A stretch of 36,032 nt of DNA from positions 1 through 36,032 of the forward strand of contig JAIRZI010000096.1 of the NCBI GenBank assembly GCA_031267295.1, in the 5' to 3' direction. The notes beneath the pieces are model-generated. The model searched no databases, was not told the origin of the DNA, and saw nothing but the letters and a program-made list of their open reading frames with translations. This DNA comes from Propionibacteriaceae bacterium (GTDB lineage Bacteria > Actinomycetota > Actinomycetes > Propionibacteriales > Propionibacteriaceae). Positions 1,274 through 29,495 of this stretch are shown here, one piece after another. Position 1 is the stretch's first letter. Each line of letters starts with the position of its first letter. The position numbers were made by a program, and so were the translations under genes.

Positions 1274-2479
1274 ATGGATGAACTCATCGCTCGTAAAGGA
1301 TACTTAGCTCAGCTTGCCATGTGGCGCGAAAAGCAGATGATTAAGGTTGTCGCTGGAGTTCGACGTTGTGGAAAGTCAACGCTTTTTGAACTGTACATCG
1401 CAGCGCTAAAAGCGTCTGGCATAACCGATGAGCAGATCATTAGCATCAATCTTGAAGATGAAGACTATGCGGAACTCCTTGACCACAAGGCGTTATACAA
1501 CTATGTGAAATCTCATTTTGTTGAAGGTAAATGGATGTATGTGTTCATTGACGAGGTGCAGAACTGCCCGGATTATGAAAAGGCGGTATCCAGTCTCTTT
1601 TTGAAACCCCAAGTAGATATCTATCTCACCGGCTCAAACGCTTATATGCTTTCGGGTGAACTCGCTACTAAGTTGAGCGCCAGATACGTTGCAATCGACA
1701 TGCTGCCACTGTCTTTCTTGGAGTATGGCGAAGCTGTCGCTGTTCCTGACAAGCGAGAACGGTTCAACTTGTATCTAAACATGGGGGCGTTTCCCTACGC
1801 TACTCGTTTCGTTGACAACTCGCTTGCTCATAGCCAATATCTGGAAGGGGTTTACAACACCGTTCTTATCAAGGACGTGATGGTACGTAAAAATCTGAGC
1901 GATGTCACGCTGTTGAAAACCATCGTTAATTTCCTCGCTGCGAACGTCGGTAGTCCGGTGTCTGCTAAAAAGATTGCGGACACGATGACATCTAGCGGTC
2001 GCCCTACTGCGGTTGCTACAGTCGAAATGTGTTTAGCGGCTCTCACGGATAGCTACCTGTTTTACAAGGTGCAACGCTATGACATCAAAGGAAAGGCACA
2101 CCTTAGATCGCTGAGCAAGTACTACATCTGTGATACCGGTTTGCGAAATATGATTCTTGGCACTAGGGGAACGGACATCGGGCATCAGATAGAGAACATG
2201 GTGTATCTGGAACTGTTGCGACGCGGATACACGGTGAATATTGGCAAGTCTGGGCGCGATACCGAAGTTGATTTCGTAGCTGTGCGACAAAGCCAACCAG
2301 AGTATTACCAGGTTTCGGCTTCCGTTCTGGATGAGACCACACTGGCGCGCGAACTTGCTCCGCTAAATCAGATTCGTGACAACTACCCTAAACACCTACT
2401 CACGCTTGACGATTTCACCCTCGATCACAACGGAATCCGTCAAACTAACCTGATCGACTGGTTGTTGCAGGATAGTTAG
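1274..2479 (+). CDS. AAA+ ATPase with C-terminal DUF4143 (ATPase 1)
   Basis: A 401-residue member of the archaeal-type AAA+ ATPases with a C-terminal DUF4143 domain; the cellular role of this family is not known. Visible parts: Walker A GVRRCGKST at residues 28-36; Walker B MYVFIDEVQ at about 88-96; the sensor block YLTGSNAYMLSGELATKLS with the following LPLSFLEY; a central winged-helix-like stretch (SAKKIADTMTSSGR); and a C-terminal predicted PD-(D/E)XK-like pattern, TEVDFVAV followed by YYQVSAS. The ATG at 1274 is preceded by GAGGT at a normal distance. The gene looks lower in GC than the ribosomal genes. It is convergent with the phosphoribosyltransferase gene, lies between two copies of that gene's 3' end, and has a hairpin pair upstream. 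It is the same subfamily as the protein encoded at 28165-29388, with which it shares Walker A at identical residue positions. Confidence 0.9.
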   Translation: MDELIARKGYLAQLAMWREKQMIKVVAGVRRCGKSTLFELYIAALKASGITDEQIISINLEDEDYAELLDHKALYNYVKSHFVEGKWMYVFIDEVQNCPDYEKAVSSLFLKPQVDIYLTGSNAYMLSGELATKLSARYVAIDMLPLSFLEYGEAVAVPDKRERFNLYLNMGAFPYATRFVDNSLAHSQYLEGVYNTVLIKDVMVRKNLSDVTLLKTIVNFLAANVGSPVSAKKIADTMTSSGRPTAVATVEMCLAALTDSYLFYKVQRYDIKGKAHLRSLSKYYICDTGLRNMILGTRGTDIGHQIENMVYLELLRRGYTVNIGKSGRDTEVDFVAVRQSQPEYYQVSASVLDETTLARELAPLNQIRDNYPKHLLTLDDFTLDHNGIRQTNLIDWLLQDS

Positions 2480-22893: not shown

Positions 22894-24165
22894 CTATGTT
22901 GTGAGGTCATTCCAGATTGCGGATATAGGCATGGCTCGGCGACGTGCCCCGAATGGTACGGTATCTGTGCCGGTGTATAGCACAATCCCTGCGATAAAGT
23001 CGTTGCCGAGTCTGCTCTCCAGGTGGGCTATGCCACGAAAATCTTCGGCTCTAGGGGTGGAGGAAGCCTTGACATCAATCGCTACGACTCGTCCGCGGCT
23101 GTCTTCCAGAATTAGGTCTACTTCAGTTTGGTCTTTTGTGCGATAGTGATAGAGAACTGCGGGGGTTTCACACCATGATAGTTGACGGGCGAGTTCCATA
23201 GCTACGAACCCCTCAAGTAACCCGCCCAGTGGGTTACTTTGTTTCGTCAGACCATCGGTGTTATAGCCTAGTTGGCTTGCAGCGATACCGGAATCAACGA
23301 ATGCGACCTTTTCGGTGGTTATCGCTCGTTGGGTTAGATTGCGAGACCAGGCAGGAATGCGTTTGATTAGGAAAACCTCTTCCAGTAAAACGAGATAGCG
23401 ACGGATAGTTGTAACTGGTAGCCCGGTTTCTTTCGAAAGATGAGCTGGAACCAGCAGTTGTCCCGATCTAGCAGCGATCAAGCGTATGAGTTGGCGTAGT
23501 TGCACTGAACGTTCTATCTGAGCAACCTGCATCACATCACGGTTCACTAGATCGGCGACATAGGAGTTATGAAAAACAGTGCGACGACGATCTGCACGAG
23601 CCACTGCTTCTGGAAATCCTCCTCGGACTAGGCGTTCAATGTAGCTGTGTCGGGTATCTACCGATGTGAAGTGCAACTGTGTACCATGCGAAAACAAGAC
23701 ATCTATAAAACTTCTTTGACCGGTTTGATCAATCTCGCCTTGAGAAAGCGGCCATAACTCAATAGTTTCCATTCGTCCAGGGAGGGCATCAGACACTTCG
23801 CGCAGACCCATCAATCGTGCAGATCCGGTAAGTAGGAAAGCGCCAGGACGGGGGTTGGAATCGACTTCGTGTTTTATGCTCAAAAGCAGGTCAGGTACTC
23901 GCTGTACTTCATCAATTACCAGCATTTGGTTACTCAATAAAAACTGGTTTGGATCTGCTGTTGCTGATTCTCGCCATGCGGGGGCATCCAGGCTTCGCAT
24001 CACACCGTTGTATTTGTCAGCCAATTGGGCTGCAAGGGTGCTTTTTCCGCATTGCCGCGCTCCGTTCACCAAAACCACGCGGGTGTCTGCTAGCGCGGCT
24101 TCAACTGTTGCCGCTGCCCGGCGCGGCAACAGTTGTCCCAGTGGGGATTTTGGAATGTTTACCAT
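22894..24165 (-). CDS. AAA+ ATPase with C-terminal DUF4143 (ATPase 3)
   Basis: A 423-residue archaeal-type AAA+ ATPase of unknown role, of a different subfamily from the other two in the window. Walker A is GARQCGKST at 35-43; Walker B is MLVIDEVQR near 85; FLLTGSARLMG is the sensor block; a central winged-helix-like stretch LVPAHLSKETGLPVTTIRRYLVLL precedes the DUF4143 part. The C-terminal TEVDLILED...VAIDVKASS follows the PD-(D/E)XK nuclease-like pattern more fully than the others. The ATG at 24165 has only a weak ribosome-binding site. The gene is convergent with map and bracketed by two copies of the neighbouring gene's 3' end. Confidence 0.9.
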   Translation of the reverse strand: MVNIPKSPLGQLLPRRAAATVEAALADTRVVLVNGARQCGKSTLAAQLADKYNGVMRSLDAPAWRESATADPNQFLLSNQMLVIDEVQRVPDLLLSIKHEVDSNPRPGAFLLTGSARLMGLREVSDALPGRMETIELWPLSQGEIDQTGQRSFIDVLFSHGTQLHFTSVDTRHSYIERLVRGGFPEAVARADRRRTVFHNSYVADLVNRDVMQVAQIERSVQLRQLIRLIAARSGQLLVPAHLSKETGLPVTTIRRYLVLLEEVFLIKRIPAWSRNLTQRAITTEKVAFVDSGIAASQLGYNTDGLTKQSNPLGGLLEGFVAMELARQLSWCETPAVLYHYRTKDQTEVDLILEDSRGRVVAIDVKASSTPRAEDFRGIAHLESRLGNDFIAGIVLYTGTDTVPFGARRRAMPISAIWNDLTT

Positions 24166-24657: not shown

Positions 24658-24930
24658 ATGGCGGAACAACGATTACAGATCAATATGCCGAATGAACAGG
24701 CGATAGGCGTGTATGCCGACTTTGTACGCGCTTGGCACACTAACGACGCTTTTGTGCTCGACTTTGCCGCGTTGCATGAGCCAGCCACTTCCACCGACGA
24801 CGGCGTGCTGATTAAAGCTGGAGTGGTGTCGCGGGTGCGCATTCCGCCAAGTCAGGTGTTTGAGCTAATGAAAGCGTTAGAGCAACAACTTTCTGCGTGG
24901 GAGAAAGAAACCGGCCGCAACGGCGTGTAG
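24658..24930 (+). CDS. small DUF3467-like protein
   Basis: A 90-residue protein of unknown role. IGVYADFVRAWHTNDAFVLDFAAL, followed by SRVRIPPSQVFELMKALEQQLSAWEKETG, follows the DUF3467 pattern (a YADF/YANF strand, FVLDF, then SRI/VxxxPxxxxxLxxAL). Small genes of this kind are widespread in Actinomycetota. It starts at the ATG at 24658 and lies 27 bp before the aminotransferase gene, so it may be its co-transcribed leader gene. Confidence 0.7.
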   Translation: MAEQRLQINMPNEQAIGVYADFVRAWHTNDAFVLDFAALHEPATSTDDGVLIKAGVVSRVRIPPSQVFELMKALEQQLSAWEKETGRNGV

Positions 24931-24957: not shown

Positions 24958-26202
24958 ATGAGTCAAGAGGTTTTCGAGAAGTACGAATCGAACGTTCGCT
25001 CGTATTCCCGCAGTTTTCCCACCATTTTCACTCGGGCTAAAGGGTCGTTGTTGTATGACATCTCCGGGCGTGAGTTCATCGACTTTTTCTGTGGTGCCGG
25101 CGCACTTAACTATGGGCATAACCCCGACTACATCAAAGCTAAGCTGGCGGCGTATCTCGAATCAGACGGTGTCATGCATTCGCTTGACATGTACACCGTA
25201 CCCAAGGCGGAGTTCATTGAATACTTCGAGACGAAAATTATTGAGCCGCGCGGATTCGATTACAAAATCATGTTCACCGGTCCTACCGGCACCAACGCCG
25301 TAGAAGCTGGGTTGAAGTTGGCTCGCAAGATCACTAAACGTCTAGGGGTGTTCGCATTCCAGGGCGCTTATCACGGTATGACGCTCGGTTCGCTCGCCCT
25401 CACTACGGACGCTGGTTCGCGCTCTGGTGCCGGAGTGCCGCTCGGCAACGTCACTCACCTCCCAGCCCCGTACCAATATGGCGAAGAGTTTGCCCTCACT
25501 TATTTTGAAGACCTCATCACCTCCGATCACTCTGGGGTGGAACTTCCAGCGGCACTCGCATTAGAGACGGTACAAGCTGAAGGCGGAGTGCATGTGTTCA
25601 GCAACGCATTCCTGCAAGGGTTGCAGCGTATCTGCAAACGTTATGGCATTCTGTTGTTGGTTGACGACATTCAGGTGGGGTGTGCTCGCACGGGTCGTTT
25701 CTTTAGCTTTGAACGAGCTGGAATCAAGCCGGACATCGTAGTGGTATCTAAATCTATCGGCGGATATGGAATGCCGATGGCGCTCACCTTGTTTCGTCCC
25801 GAGTTAGACATCTGGTCGCCGGGGGAGCATAACGGCACTTTCCGCGGCAATCAGCTAGCTATCGTGGCCGCCAAAGCAGGTTTAGAAGTGCTGCTTAACG
25901 ATCACGTCGAGGACGGTGTCACTGAACGCGAAACCATTGTGCGTGATTTCTTAAACACAAACGTTGCTAACATCCCCGGAGTGCAGGAAGTGCGTGGCCG
26001 GGGGCTAATTTGGGGTATCGATGTTGGAACCGATGCTAAGGCGGCAAAGATCGCTAAGGCGGCATACAACTCTGGGCTGATCATGGAACGTGCCGGGCGT
26101 GATAACTCGGTGTTGAAGATCATGCCAAGTTTAGTGATTCCGCTGGATACGTTGCAGCTTGGATTGGAGATCGTGGCGCAAGTGGTGCAGGAAACTAGGT
26201 AG
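24958..26202 (+). CDS. diaminobutyrate--2-oxoglutarate aminotransferase, EctB-like
   Basis: A 414-residue class III PLP aminotransferase. In the EctB family it converts L-aspartate semialdehyde and glutamate to L-2,4-diaminobutyrate. EctB-specific blocks run through the protein: VRSYSRSFPTIFTRAKGSLLYD, FFCGAGALNYGHN, FTGPTGTNAVEAGLKLARK, LLVDDIQVGCARTGRFFSFERAGIKPDIV, SKSIGGYGMPMALTLFRPELDIW and PGEHNGTFRGNQLA. The PLP lysine is K265. No ectA or ectC is present, so ectoine synthesis is not supported by context. Instead murT-like and gatD-like genes follow after 5 bp, which points to a cell-wall use of diaminobutyrate. The substrate could differ slightly; the family call itself is firm. Confidence 0.88.
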   Translation: MSQEVFEKYESNVRSYSRSFPTIFTRAKGSLLYDISGREFIDFFCGAGALNYGHNPDYIKAKLAAYLESDGVMHSLDMYTVPKAEFIEYFETKIIEPRGFDYKIMFTGPTGTNAVEAGLKLARKITKRLGVFAFQGAYHGMTLGSLALTTDAGSRSGAGVPLGNVTHLPAPYQYGEEFALTYFEDLITSDHSGVELPAALALETVQAEGGVHVFSNAFLQGLQRICKRYGILLLVDDIQVGCARTGRFFSFERAGIKPDIVVVSKSIGGYGMPMALTLFRPELDIWSPGEHNGTFRGNQLAIVAAKAGLEVLLNDHVEDGVTERETIVRDFLNTNVANIPGVQEVRGRGLIWGIDVGTDAKAAKIAKAAYNSGLIMERAGRDNSVLKIMPSLVIPLDTLQLGLEIVAQVVQETR

Positions 26203-26207
26203 CAGCT

Positions 26208-27413
26208 ATGAGGTTTTTGATCGCACTTTGGGCGGCGAAAGCGTCTGCTGTACTGCTGCGGTTGCTGGGACGGAACGCCACACAGTTCCCTGGCGCGTTG
26301 GCGATGCGGCTTTGCCCCGGATTCCTAGCGAAGGTCGGGAAGCCTGCTCGTATCATCGCTATCACTGGTAGCAATGGAAAAACCACCACCACTAACTTCA
26401 TCGTCGCTGCTTTAGAGGCGCTCGGAGTGCGGCTACTGTCAAACAAACTTGGCTCCAATTTGGAAGCCGGTATCGCCACTTCGCTTGCGTTGGGTGCGAA
26501 ACTCACCGGCGCGCCACGCTGCGCAGTTGCCGTTTTTGAAGTGGACGAACGAGCGTCAAAACTTATCTATGCCCATGTCACCCCGGAACTGCTGTTGATC
26601 ACTAATCTCACCAACGACACCATCAAACGCAACGCTCACCCGTCTTACATTCGTTGGATTATTGAACAAGCTTTGCCGTCCAGTACAAAACTGGTGCTCA
26701 ACGCCGCCGACCCGGTTAGTGCGATGCTGGCTGTCGATCATAAACGAGTGTTTTTCGCACTAGACGCAGTAGCTGACTATCGGGCGCTTAGCTGGGGTGA
26801 CGGTGTGTTGCGAGCATCCACTCCGACAGGTGAGCAGGAGTATCCACTGATTCATGACAACCGAGTGAACGTCGCTAATGAGGTTGCCGCCGTAGCAGTG
26901 TTGAGTGAGTTCGGAGTTAGCGAGATTGCTCGGGGGCTAGCTGCGGCAAAGGTTCCGGGTTCGCGTTACCAAAAAGAAATGATCAGTTGGCTTAGCGTGG
27001 TGTCTATGACTGCAAAATCCGCTAGTCCTCCTGCGGTTTCTACGGCGTTGCGCTACGCAGCGGATGCGCCGGGGCGCAAGGCGCTTATTGTGGCCTATGA
27101 CGATATTGGCGAGTTCGATACGGGATGCGAAAACACTTGTTGGTACTACGATGTCGACTTCACAGCGCTTACTGATCCGTCATTTGTTTTCATAGTGTTT
27201 GCTGGGCCGCGACATTTGGACGCTGTTGTCAGGGCACTGCTGGCCGGGGTGGATTCAGCGCTGATTCGCAGCACCCCCGCAGAGGATGCTGCGGCGGATT
27301 TAGTTAAGTTGGACGGCGTTGACAAACTGTTTTTGCTGCACGACTCGCCGCTTGTCAATTCGGAACCGATCATCAAGGCCGGATTACGACGCAGGTTGGG
27401 GGTGAGCGCGTGA
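26208..27413 (+). CDS. murT: MurT-like Mur ligase lacking the zinc ribbon
   Basis: A 401-residue protein of the MurT branch of Mur ligases, which in other Gram-positives uses ATP to activate the alpha-carboxyl of D-Glu in lipid II for amidation with GatD. The N-terminal hydrophobic segment, the P-loop ITGSNGKTT (52-60), the NKLGSNLEAGIATSL block, LITNLTNDTIKR and the C-terminal DVDF signature (D315) are present. The four-cysteine zinc ribbon usually inserted in the central domain is absent; no cysteine occurs between about 105 and 300, and the protein is about 35 residues shorter than typical MurT. The usual DRYGE-type motif is replaced by KRNAHP. It overlaps gatD by 4 bp. A variant acceptor or donor is likely. 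Confidence 0.8.
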   Translation: MRFLIALWAAKASAVLLRLLGRNATQFPGALAMRLCPGFLAKVGKPARIIAITGSNGKTTTTNFIVAALEALGVRLLSNKLGSNLEAGIATSLALGAKLTGAPRCAVAVFEVDERASKLIYAHVTPELLLITNLTNDTIKRNAHPSYIRWIIEQALPSSTKLVLNAADPVSAMLAVDHKRVFFALDAVADYRALSWGDGVLRASTPTGEQEYPLIHDNRVNVANEVAAVAVLSEFGVSEIARGLAAAKVPGSRYQKEMISWLSVVSMTAKSASPPAVSTALRYAADAPGRKALIVAYDDIGEFDTGCENTCWYYDVDFTALTDPSFVFIVFAGPRHLDAVVRALLAGVDSALIRSTPAEDAAADLVKLDGVDKLFLLHDSPLVNSEPIIKAGLRRRLGVSA

Positions 27414-28138
27414 TAATCGAACATTTATATCCGGAAGTCGCCAATCTGTACGGCGATCCGTATAACGTTGAGATTTTACGGTTAAGTCGTCCAGATGCGC
27501 TGGTAATTGAAACGCAGTTAGCTGAAGCGCCAGCCTTTGCTGTCCGGGATGACATCGACCTGGTGTATCTCGGTTCGATGACGGAAGCTGCGCAGCAGCA
27601 GGCGGCGGATGCACTGGAGCCGTACCGGGAGCGCATCGCCTTACTTGTTCGTCTGGGTAAGCATTTCCTCTTCACTGGCAACGCGCTTGATTTGGTGGGG
27701 GAGCGCGTCGTCAACCACGATATGGGTTACGAGTTTGCCGGGTTGGGGTTTTTCCAGTTTGTTACCACACTACGGATGTTTTCTCGGGTACATAATCGCA
27801 TGTTCACTACAGTTAACGGTTTGCCGATGGTGGGGTATCGTTCCACTTTCAGCTACCACGCTTTGCGTGGTGAGCAACGCAGTGTGGACTGGGGGTTCGG
27901 CCATATCGTACAGGGGCAGGGGCTTGCCGCTGGTTGCGATGAGGGGGTGAGGTTGCATAATCTCATCGCCACCGAAATCATCGGCCCGCTGCTGATCACT
28001 AACCCGCTGTTCACCAAGCAGTTGTTAGCGGTGATCGGTGGTGGCGATGCGCCGTTGGCACACGAAGAAGCGTTGCTGGCTGCATATCAAGCTAGATTGG
28101 CTGAGTTCCGCGACCCGCGTCGCTGGGGTGGACATTAA
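27410..28138 (+). CDS. gatD: GatD-like protein with both catalytic residues replaced
   Basis: A 242-residue homolog of GatD, the glutaminase partner of MurT. The family's N-terminus is clear (LYPEVANLYGDPYNVEILRL), as are GLGFFQF and the C-terminal IGPLLITNPLF block. The class I glutaminase nucleophile motif (normally ICGGYQLLG) reads FTGNALDLVG, with Thr89 at the Cys position. The catalytic His of GTYLHGPLL is replaced by Ile191 in ATEIIGPLL. The only cysteine is C176, outside these motifs. Glutamine hydrolysis is therefore not expected. The reading frame is intact and overlaps murT (TGATA context), so the protein is probably maintained as a structural or binding partner. Confidence 0.8.
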   Translation: MIIEHLYPEVANLYGDPYNVEILRLSRPDALVIETQLAEAPAFAVRDDIDLVYLGSMTEAAQQQAADALEPYRERIALLVRLGKHFLFTGNALDLVGERVVNHDMGYEFAGLGFFQFVTTLRMFSRVHNRMFTTVNGLPMVGYRSTFSYHALRGEQRSVDWGFGHIVQGQGLAAGCDEGVRLHNLIATEIIGPLLITNPLFTKQLLAVIGGGDAPLAHEEALLAAYQARLAEFRDPRRWGGH

Positions 28139-28164: not shown

Positions 28165-29388
28165 TTACGGTTGAGCCATTAGCCAATCGAGACACGATAT
28201 TTGCAAAATGCCATCGTGCGATATTGGTGGGTTCTGATCGAGGGTAAGCAGATACTTTGGATGGTGGTCTCGTAGTGCGAGCAGCGGTTTCAACTCGCGG
28301 GCTAACGTGGCTGGGTCGCGTAGCGTTTCACACACCTGGTAGTAAACGGTATCCGCCCCGTCGCCTACAACGAAATCGATTTCGCCTGACGCAACTGCGC
28401 CGACACGTACCTTGCCATTACGGCGTACTAGCTCAAGGAATACGATATTTTCCAAGATGTGGCCGGTATCACTCCCGGTAAAACCAACTAATGCGGCACG
28501 CAACCCTGGGTCTACTACATAGTATTTTTCTGACCCGGTGAGGTAACGCAACCCTTTGACATCCCATCGCCGTGCAGGGTAACAGAGGTAAGCGCTGGTC
28601 AGCCCAGAAATGTACTTGTCGATAGTGGTGCTTGATGGGGATCGGCCAGCTGATTCTAAACCAGCGCTCACTCGCCGCAACGACGTTAGGTTGCCAATGT
28701 TATGAAACAGGAAGCGCACCACATCTTCGAGCGCAGCGGCGGTTGACACCTGCTGGCGTATAACAACGTCTTTTAGGAGCACTGTGTCAAGGATGCCATT
28801 CAAGTAATCGCTGACGGCAACGGCATCCGGAATCAAATTGAGCACGAATGGGAATGAACCATAGCGAATGTACTCCGTATAGAGCGCAGTGAGTGATAAG
28901 TCATCGGGGTTTTGTTGCCGACGACCGGTTACAAACTCAGCAAACGACAAAGGCAGTAGCGATAACTCAACATAACGACCAGAAAGCAGTGTGGCTAGTT
29001 CGCCGGAGAGCAGGCTGGCGTTGGAACCTGTTATATAGAGGTCTATGTTGGCTCGCAACAGCAAGCTGTCGGCCATTCGTTCGTAATGCTCCACCAACTG
29101 CACTTCATCGAGGAAGACGTATGTGGTGCCAGTTGGGGCAAGATTTTCGATGATGTAGTCATGCAAGTTTTTGTGATTTGTAACTAGTTCTGCGTTGGCT
29201 AAGTCATCCATTGCGAGTGCAATGATGTTGGCCGCTGGCACTCCTTCGGCAAGTAGTTCGCGTTGAAAGAGCGTTAGCAGCGTCGATTTACCGCAGCGAC
29301 GTACGCCAGTTATTACTTTGATAACTTGGCGATCACGCCAGCGGCGAAGCATAGCTAACCCTTCAGGTCTGCTCAGTAATGCGTACAT
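28165..29388 (-). CDS. AAA+ ATPase with C-terminal DUF4143 (ATPase 2)
   Basis: A 407-residue AAA+ ATPase of unknown role, close to ATPase 1. I use the internal ATG at 29388 instead of one 13 codons upstream, because it aligns exactly with the ATPase 1 N-terminus: Walker A GVRRCGKST then lies at 28-36 in both. Walker B TYVFLDEVQ, YITGSNASLLSGELATLLSGRY and LLPLSFAEF are shared with ATPase 1. The winged-helix-like region and the C-terminal GEIDFVVGD...VYYQVCET nuclease-like pattern are also present. The start codon lies inside a 32-bp palindrome (29384-29415), and no Shine-Dalgarno is visible, so translation may be leaderless or controlled there. It is convergent with gatD (26-bp gap) and downstream of typA. 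Confidence 0.88.
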   Translation of the reverse strand: MYALLSRPEGLAMLRRWRDRQVIKVITGVRRCGKSTLLTLFQRELLAEGVPAANIIALAMDDLANAELVTNHKNLHDYIIENLAPTGTTYVFLDEVQLVEHYERMADSLLLRANIDLYITGSNASLLSGELATLLSGRYVELSLLPLSFAEFVTGRRQQNPDDLSLTALYTEYIRYGSFPFVLNLIPDAVAVSDYLNGILDTVLLKDVVIRQQVSTAAALEDVVRFLFHNIGNLTSLRRVSAGLESAGRSPSSTTIDKYISGLTSAYLCYPARRWDVKGLRYLTGSEKYYVVDPGLRAALVGFTGSDTGHILENIVFLELVRRNGKVRVGAVASGEIDFVVGDGADTVYYQVCETLRDPATLARELKPLLALRDHHPKYLLTLDQNPPISHDGILQISCLDWLMAQP

Positions 29389-29495
29389 ATTGTCCAGTGT
29401 ACTGGACAATATGTATAAATATTCCAATATCGTCTAATAGACTGGACAATATTGATAAACGTACCTATATCGCTCAACGTGCTGAACAATGTGGT
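29384..29495. repeat. three palindromes at exact 40-bp period upstream of ATPase 2
   Basis: Palindrome 1 (29384-29415) is perfect with 15-bp arms around a 2-bp centre and contains ATTGTCCAGT/ACTGGACAAT. Palindrome 2 (29424-29455) keeps 11 of 15 arm pairs and palindrome 3 (29464-29495) keeps 9 of 15. The right half RCTGRACAATRT is well conserved in all three. The centres are at 29399.5, 29439.5 and 29479.5, exactly 40 bp apart, or close to four helical turns, which suits a protein bound on one face of DNA. Palindrome 1 overlaps the ATPase 2 start codon, which favours autoregulation. Confidence 0.88.

Follow-up and report, generated by a model that had tools for sequence, protein, structure and literature searches.

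The window, by which we mean the whole 36,032-nt contig of a Propionibacteriaceae bacterium that was analysed, encodes a MurT/GatD-like pair in which the residues corresponding to the Staphylococcus aureus glutaminase triad are replaced in both subunits. Both folds and the ATP site of MurT are intact, the two genes form an operon with ectB, and related pairs lacking the nucleophile cysteine recur across families with a conserved set of replacement residues in the former glutamine pocket. We propose that the pair is an ATP-dependent ligase which would couple the alpha-carboxyl of D-Glu to a free amine, probably diaminobutyrate, and thus start a type B cross-link, a reading to which we give a probability of slightly under one half (about 0.48). 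The original prediction of a GatD that does not hydrolyse glutamine holds in its core, but it missed the concerted loss in two subunits, the second pair of the source genome, the pocket shared by the family and ectB as a potential source of the amine.

Glutaminase residues and ATP site of the window pair

The gatD-like gene (27410..28138, plus strand) begins with GTG, overlaps the murT stop codon by 4 bp and encodes 242 aa, the reading frame being uninterrupted up to the stop at 28138, as originally described. Curated NCBIfam models of GatD matched the product weakly (29 bits with NF052463, whose cut-off is 450, and 27 bits with NF045636, whose cut-off is 400), and a sequence search of the PDB retrieved S. 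aureus GatD with an E value of 2e-5. The AlphaFold model (pLDDT 89.3, pTM 0.89) has a GatD fold: the closest solved structure is S. aureus GatD (6h5e_A; Z 24.5, rmsd 2.8 over 229 residues, 21% identity), and six entries of MurT/GatD complexes rank above all other GATases, followed by 7ac8 at 17.2. The nucleophile elbow reads FLFT-G-NALDLVG in the window versus GLTI-C-GGYQFLG in S. aureus, which aligns Gly90 (codon GGC, 27677..27679, plus strand) with the nucleophile Cys94; in the model, Gly90 sits in the strand-to-helix elbow. The absence of the catalytic cysteine was thus correctly recognized, but the residue in its place is Gly90 rather than the neighbouring Thr89 that had been named. Ile191 (27980..27982, plus strand) aligns with S. 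aureus His189, in agreement with the replacement of the catalytic histidine reported earlier. Asp16, the GatD aspartate of the YGD/YSD motif, which has been proposed as the third triad residue in Streptococcus pneumoniae (PMC6085368), is retained. Cys176 is the sole cysteine of the protein.

The preceding gene, encoding a MurT-like Mur ligase of 401 aa (26208..27413, plus strand), keeps the ATP site. The P-loop GSNGKTTTT (residues 54-62; 26367..26393, plus strand) is intact, and Glu111 (26538..26540, plus strand), which is invariant in the alignment, takes the position of S. aureus Glu108 of the Mg2+/ATP site, an equivalence read from the FEVDE/IEIDE alignment. NCBIfam MurT models scored 102 and 83 bits against a cut-off of 800, and the structural model (pLDDT 86.8) resembles 9sqj (Z 31.1) and 6h5e (Z 27.9). 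The Cys4 zinc ribbon is missing, but it is not family-defining, given that only 10 of the 37 canonical MurTs in the alignment set have it. Asn309 (27132..27134, plus strand) aligns with S. aureus Asp349, the third member of the GatD triad; residues 301-309 of the model have pLDDT under 50, so that Asn309 cannot be placed in it.

According to an S. aureus in vitro study, GatD C94S abolishes amidation and MurT D349N severely reduces it (PMC6113224), the latter mutation being the same change as the natural Asn309 of the window MurT. Because all three mutation-proven S. aureus triad residues are gone, the inability of the window GatD to hydrolyse glutamine, as originally predicted, is well supported, and the loss of the triad is concerted across GatD and MurT. 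Chance or sequencing error is unlikely, because the same pair is present in two independent MAGs, L007 and L008.

Immediately upstream, with its stop codon 5 bp before the murT start, lies an ectB-like gene for a diaminobutyrate-2-oxoglutarate transaminase (24958..26202, plus strand, 414 aa), which scored 570 bits with NF006733 (cut-off 438) and 551.1 with TIGR02407 (cut-off 552.2) and is itself preceded by a gene for a DUF3467 protein (24658..24930, plus strand). The order of ectB and murT is the same in L008. The window-type pair of L007 has no ectB alongside, and there a DUF3467 homologue (91% identity) directly precedes murT. Neither ectA nor ectC adjoins ectB within the window. Three AAA_14/DUF4143 ATPases are also encoded in the window (1274-2479, plus strand; 22894-24165 and 28165-29427, both minus strand), and the latter two genes flank the DUF3467-ectB-murT-gatD island.

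Distribution and conserved pocket of Cys-less pairs

The source genome (1.69 Mb, 95.65% complete, 0.09% contamination) is close to the termite-gut Propionibacteriaceae MAGs L007 and L008. It contains one further MurT/GatD pair, on C53, and the two pairs are divergent from each other. The C53 GatD reads FLFT-H-NAMEVLG and TSL-L-GP, and its MurT VE-N-TCW, i.e., His replaces Cys, Leu replaces His and Asn occupies the MurT position of the triad. The C53 genes are arranged in the order ATP-grasp (PF14397), aspartokinase, murT, gatD and murJ, with gaps of at most 10 bp or overlaps. Aspartokinase is the first enzyme of the route from Asp to diaminobutyrate, so that this enzyme is encoded at C53 and the transaminase beside the window pair.

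GatD was found in 12 of 13 named relatives. Neither Cys nor His is present in L007 and L009-L013 (Propionibacteriaceae, Oscillospiraceae, Bacilli, Crickella and Bacillota), all three triad residues are present in L014-L018, and the elbow is masked in L019. The GatD of L007 is 61% identical to that of the window and has the same Gly and Asn, and the MurT of L008 is 76% identical over the fragment available; in Vescimonas fastidiosa, the triad-less pair is carried on an 861-kb replicon. Across the Propionibacteriaceae, 108 of the 117 genomes searched gave a match, and the best-matching 30 of these 108 yielded 28 GatDs besides that of the source genome, 20 with the triad and eight without Cys, one of the latter (G487) having kept the His. 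One genome of the same genus as the source (G529) encodes a canonical GatD. Of the 125 genomes of the class survey with no match or a weak one, 80 were covered by a follow-up search. Separately, two actinobacterial MAGs of family f26 (L058 and L059, from G061 and G024) have Asp where GatD normally has its Cys (AVDAGMAAL) and keep the His, in what looks like another independent loss of the cysteine.

The Cys-less form is widespread in family f37, identified as Microbacteriaceae by plasmid contigs that are 100% identical over 20 kb to plasmids of five named genomes (Mycetocola zhujimingii, Glaciihabitans sp. INWT7, Gryllotalpicola protaetiae, Clavibacter californiensis and Herbiconiux sp. L3-i23). 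Among 150 genomes of this family, 120 pairs were typed in 115 genomes; 103 pairs lack the Cys, which is replaced by Gly (67 pairs), Ala (18), His (nine), Ser (four), Asn (three) or Thr (two); the remaining 17 carry Cys, His and Asp. None of the 120 typed pairs keeps the Cys while losing another triad residue. Counted by genome, 98 are Cys-less only, including all five named through their plasmids, none of which has a canonical pair; 14 are canonical only, three have both kinds, 30 have no MurT beyond other Mur ligases, and five remained untyped despite a match (G322, G333, G348, G385 and G388). Not every member of the family has the Cys-less pair, since it is missing from 44 of the 145 classified genomes (30 plus 14). 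The coexistence of canonical and Cys-less pairs in three genomes (G349, G361 and G416) suggests that the two kinds make different products. For nine Microbacteriaceae genomes, the only match is an HN-type pair, which belongs to the wider clade of the window. In each of three genera (g152, g157 and g163), the HN type was sampled in one species and the Gly type in another; one type displaces the other, and the two thus probably do the same job. The rpoD gene adjoins murT-gatD, at the site that the canonical pair occupies, in 47 of the 60 Microbacteriaceae stretches examined. One 1.4-Mb genome of the family (G300; L156/L296) encodes a very divergent GatD with Asn for Cys (FIAFNNALDIL, EALGN; MurT ERTPGW).

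In a tree built by a quick method from 55 rows of joined MurT and GatD, the triad-less pairs fall into two clades, each with an SH-aLRT of 100. One, which spans Actinomycetota and Bacillota, comprises the pairs of the window, C53 and Bacillota, the HN type and Crickella-like pairs; the other, the main Microbacteriaceae form, is nested among canonical pairs. Two changes of the Cys map onto this tree, and the separation of the clades implies that the triad was lost at least twice. In an 80-row alignment (37 canonical pairs, 19 of the window's clade, 19 of the main Microbacteriaceae form and five Crickella-like), all 37 canonical GatDs have the Cys, Gln97, the Glu-Asn-His-x-Gly motif and the His, which are replaced in the window's clade. 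There, the former glutamine pocket carries Thr89, Asn91 and Glu59 in 19 of 19 members and Ser148 in 95%. The NPxG motif of MurT is altered in every Cys-less class of the alignment. The combination of new invariant residues and replaced canonical ones indicates that the pocket was rewritten and did not decay, and, judging from these alignments, the Cys-less pairs are a family with a conserved pocket of its own, not a single decayed copy.

Diaminobutyrate genes and the type B wall

In type B walls, a textbook chemotype, the cross-bridge is carried by the alpha-carboxyl of D-Glu. The chemotype was reportedly described by Schleifer and Kandler in 1972. Within the Microbacteriaceae, published reports assign type B walls with diaminobutyrate (DAB) to Subtercola and Rhodoluna (PMC5945732, PMC4156110). 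Clavibacter michiganensis is described as having type B2-gamma peptidoglycan in which D-DAB links D-Glu to D-Ala, with D-Glu amidation among its muropeptide modifications (PMC9603630). The occurrence of Cys-less pairs in Microbacteriaceae such as Clavibacter would fit a role in type B walls, with 30 of the 150 genomes lacking MurT. A literature search covering few subscription papers returned no enzyme named for the type B linkage bond and no report of a Cys-less GatD.

The DNPR motif of MurE goes with diaminopimelate. The MurE of the source genome has ASPR where DNPR is expected, and DNPR is likewise missing from 11 of the 11 Microbacteriaceae MurE proteins compared. The gene (L207, 1495-2985, and L208; C15 and C56) is located outside the ftsI-murF-mraY cluster, stand-alone beside murI; an IS-like transposase (PF13936, rve) is encoded just past it. 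FemAB (PF02388), tried in 49 genomes as a marker of side-chain-linked (type A) bridges, was missing from seven of seven genomes of the same genus as the source, irrespective of their GatD, and was present in two triad-less relatives, G537 and G545.

An ectB gene need not mean ectoine: when one ectB per genome was examined in the Microbacteriaceae together with 1.5 kb on each side, ectC was missing near 20 of the 29, among them the ectB genes of Clavibacter and Herbiconiux. The EctC model PF06339 had no match in the source genome (0/1), nor in 14 control genomes (0/14), though it recognizes the EctC of L177. Stand-alone ectB showed no significant association with Cys-less pairs in the Microbacteriaceae (16 of 20 genomes; Fisher p = 0.31), so that EctB as a general companion of such pairs is unsupported in this family, and ectB scored above the cut-off in none of the nine HN-type genomes. 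Another recurrent neighbour is the ATP-grasp protein PF14397, encoded next to HN-type pairs at C53 and in five of the nine Microbacteriaceae; murT-gatD of the HN-type genomes lies between rpoD and this gene. Two genomes that lack MurT (L202 and L203) have it beside ectB. The first of these, a Microbacteriaceae genome (G315), carries rpoD, ectB, a CofE-like gamma-glutamyl ligase gene (PF01996) and the ATP-grasp gene together (L202, 3-4257), and it is possible that another ligase replaces the MurT/GatD pair there; the CofE-like gene, situated between rpoD and the ATP-grasp gene, is a first candidate for this role. A second CofE-like gene (PF01996, 30 bits) is found in Gryllotalpicola (G415; L135, 3895-4755) between rpoD and a Crickella-type triad-less pair. 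Two ectB-type genes above the cut-off are present in each of G138, G378 and G439, Microbacteriaceae without MurT.

Proposed reaction, alternatives and known systems

A study of the S. aureus enzyme (PMC3266927) reports that the wild-type MurT/GatD accepts as nitrogen donors only glutamine and, at high pH, ammonia, that MurT alone is inactive and requires its GatD partner, and that with GatD C94G glutamine-dependent amidation is lost and the NH3-dependent reaction kept at pH 8.5, not at 7.5. Hence, direct supply of the amine lets a GatD with Gly for Cys support the synthetase, and the structural or substrate-binding role originally envisaged for the window GatD fits this behaviour. In the mechanism that we favour, GatD would be an obligate, non-glutaminase subunit of a Mur-type ATP-dependent amide ligase, MurT would still activate the carboxylate with ATP, and the nucleophile would be a free amine rather than NH3 released from glutamine. 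As in canonical MurT/GatD, the acceptor would most likely be the D-Glu alpha-carboxyl of the lipid-linked precursor of peptidoglycan. The amine would most likely be an amino acid, in the window probably 2,4-diaminobutyrate from the neighbouring EctB; the bond between them would be the start of a type B (2->4) cross-link, and the source species would have type B peptidoglycan. DAB is suggested by ectB next door (also in L008), by the aspartokinase at C53 and by the frequency of ectB without ectC. The unusual motif and location of MurE also speak for this reading, whereas the narrow donor range of the wild-type S. aureus enzyme and the L007 pair without ectB speak against it. That the pair works like an amino-acid-adding Mur ligase has moderate support. 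More tentatively, the Cys-less MurT/GatD pairs as a whole could be the long-missing type B cross-bridge ligases; the glutaminase subunit would have become one that handles amino acids on at least two occasions, and the ectB-murT-gatD operon would both make and attach diaminobutyrate.

The same S. aureus complex lends itself to the main alternative explanation, namely, that the window pair is an ammonia-dependent amidase which produces D-isoglutamine from free NH3, plentiful in termite guts, its glutaminase having been lost as superfluous. MurT with GatD C94G does precisely this at pH 8.5 (PMC3266927), and amidated D-Glu is reported among the muropeptides of Clavibacter (PMC9603630), for which a Cys-less pair was the sole match. 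However, the former source gives no use of NH3 by this complex at pH 7.5, ammonia-rich habitats do not explain why families from soil, plants and fresh water have lost the glutaminase, the pocket shows constrained rewriting and no drift, both kinds of pair coexist in three genomes, and the linkage to ectB and aspartokinase is left unexplained. We regard an ammonia-driven amidase as unlikely, yet give it appreciable weight because of the 44 of 145 genomes without a Cys-less pair, the p value of 0.31 for ectB, the lack of ectB with the HN type and the D-Glu amidation in Clavibacter. Ligation of an amine or amino acid to a target other than D-Glu, for instance, another wall polymer or a second bridge amino acid, is improbable: it would be consistent with the altered MurT NPxG motif, with the ATP-grasp protein at C53, which could handle another step, and with two divergent pairs in the source genome, but the ATP site and the fold, closest to MurT (9sqj and 6h5e), and the position beside rpoD in the Microbacteriaceae argue against it.

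Two further explanations deny the pair the chemistry proposed here. The loss of all glutaminase residues and the scores of the curated GatD models far under their cut-offs might point to a degenerate or regulatory pseudo-enzyme with no catalytic role, which the intact frames, the cross-phylum conservation of motifs, the tight operon and the conserved ATP-site residues make very unlikely. A hidden glutaminase, rebuilt around Cys176, the only cysteine of the window GatD, or another residue, is scarcely credible: Cys176 is present in only two of the 19 clade members, no His is conserved (the best one of the window GatD occurs in nine of 19), and Gly90 occupies the strand-to-helix elbow of the model. 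The original prediction had named a working site of this kind, or a second intact GatD, as what would overturn it; no intact GatD was found in a search of the 95.65% complete genome, the only other GatD found, that of C53, being triad-less as well.

Under the favoured reading, an amine-to-D-Glu ligase, the fact that MurT/GatD pairs have repeatedly and concertedly lost the glutaminase would be a concrete lead to the enzyme of the type B bond; if the ammonia-dependent amidase were true instead, the pairs would constitute the first sizeable collection of natural MurT/GatD enzymes driven by ammonia. Under either reading, pipelines that annotate lipid II isoglutaminyl synthase should first check for the triad.

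Compared with the MurT/GatD lipid II isoglutaminyl synthase of S. aureus, S. pneumoniae and S. pyogenes (6gs2, 6h5e, 6fqb and 9sqj), the window pair has the same gene order and overlap, both folds, the MurT P-loop and Glu, the MurT_C domain and the pairing of GatD with MurT; it differs in that Cys94, His189 and MurT Asp349 are all replaced, as are the glutamine-pocket and NPxG motifs, and in that ectB is part of the operon. By its defining residues, the pair appears to lie outside the glutamine-dependent MurT/GatD family. The ectoine cluster ectABC shares with the window the EctB-type transaminase, but neither ectA nor ectC adjoins it here. MurC, MurD, MurE and MurF act alone on UDP-linked precursors and have an N-terminal UDP-binding domain. 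The window MurT shares with these ligases the fold for ATP-dependent carboxylate activation (Z 27.2 to Acinetobacter baumannii MurF, 4qf5, and 23.5 to Mycobacterium tuberculosis MurE, 2wtz) and, as we propose, the same chemistry, whereas, unlike them, it has a GatD partner.
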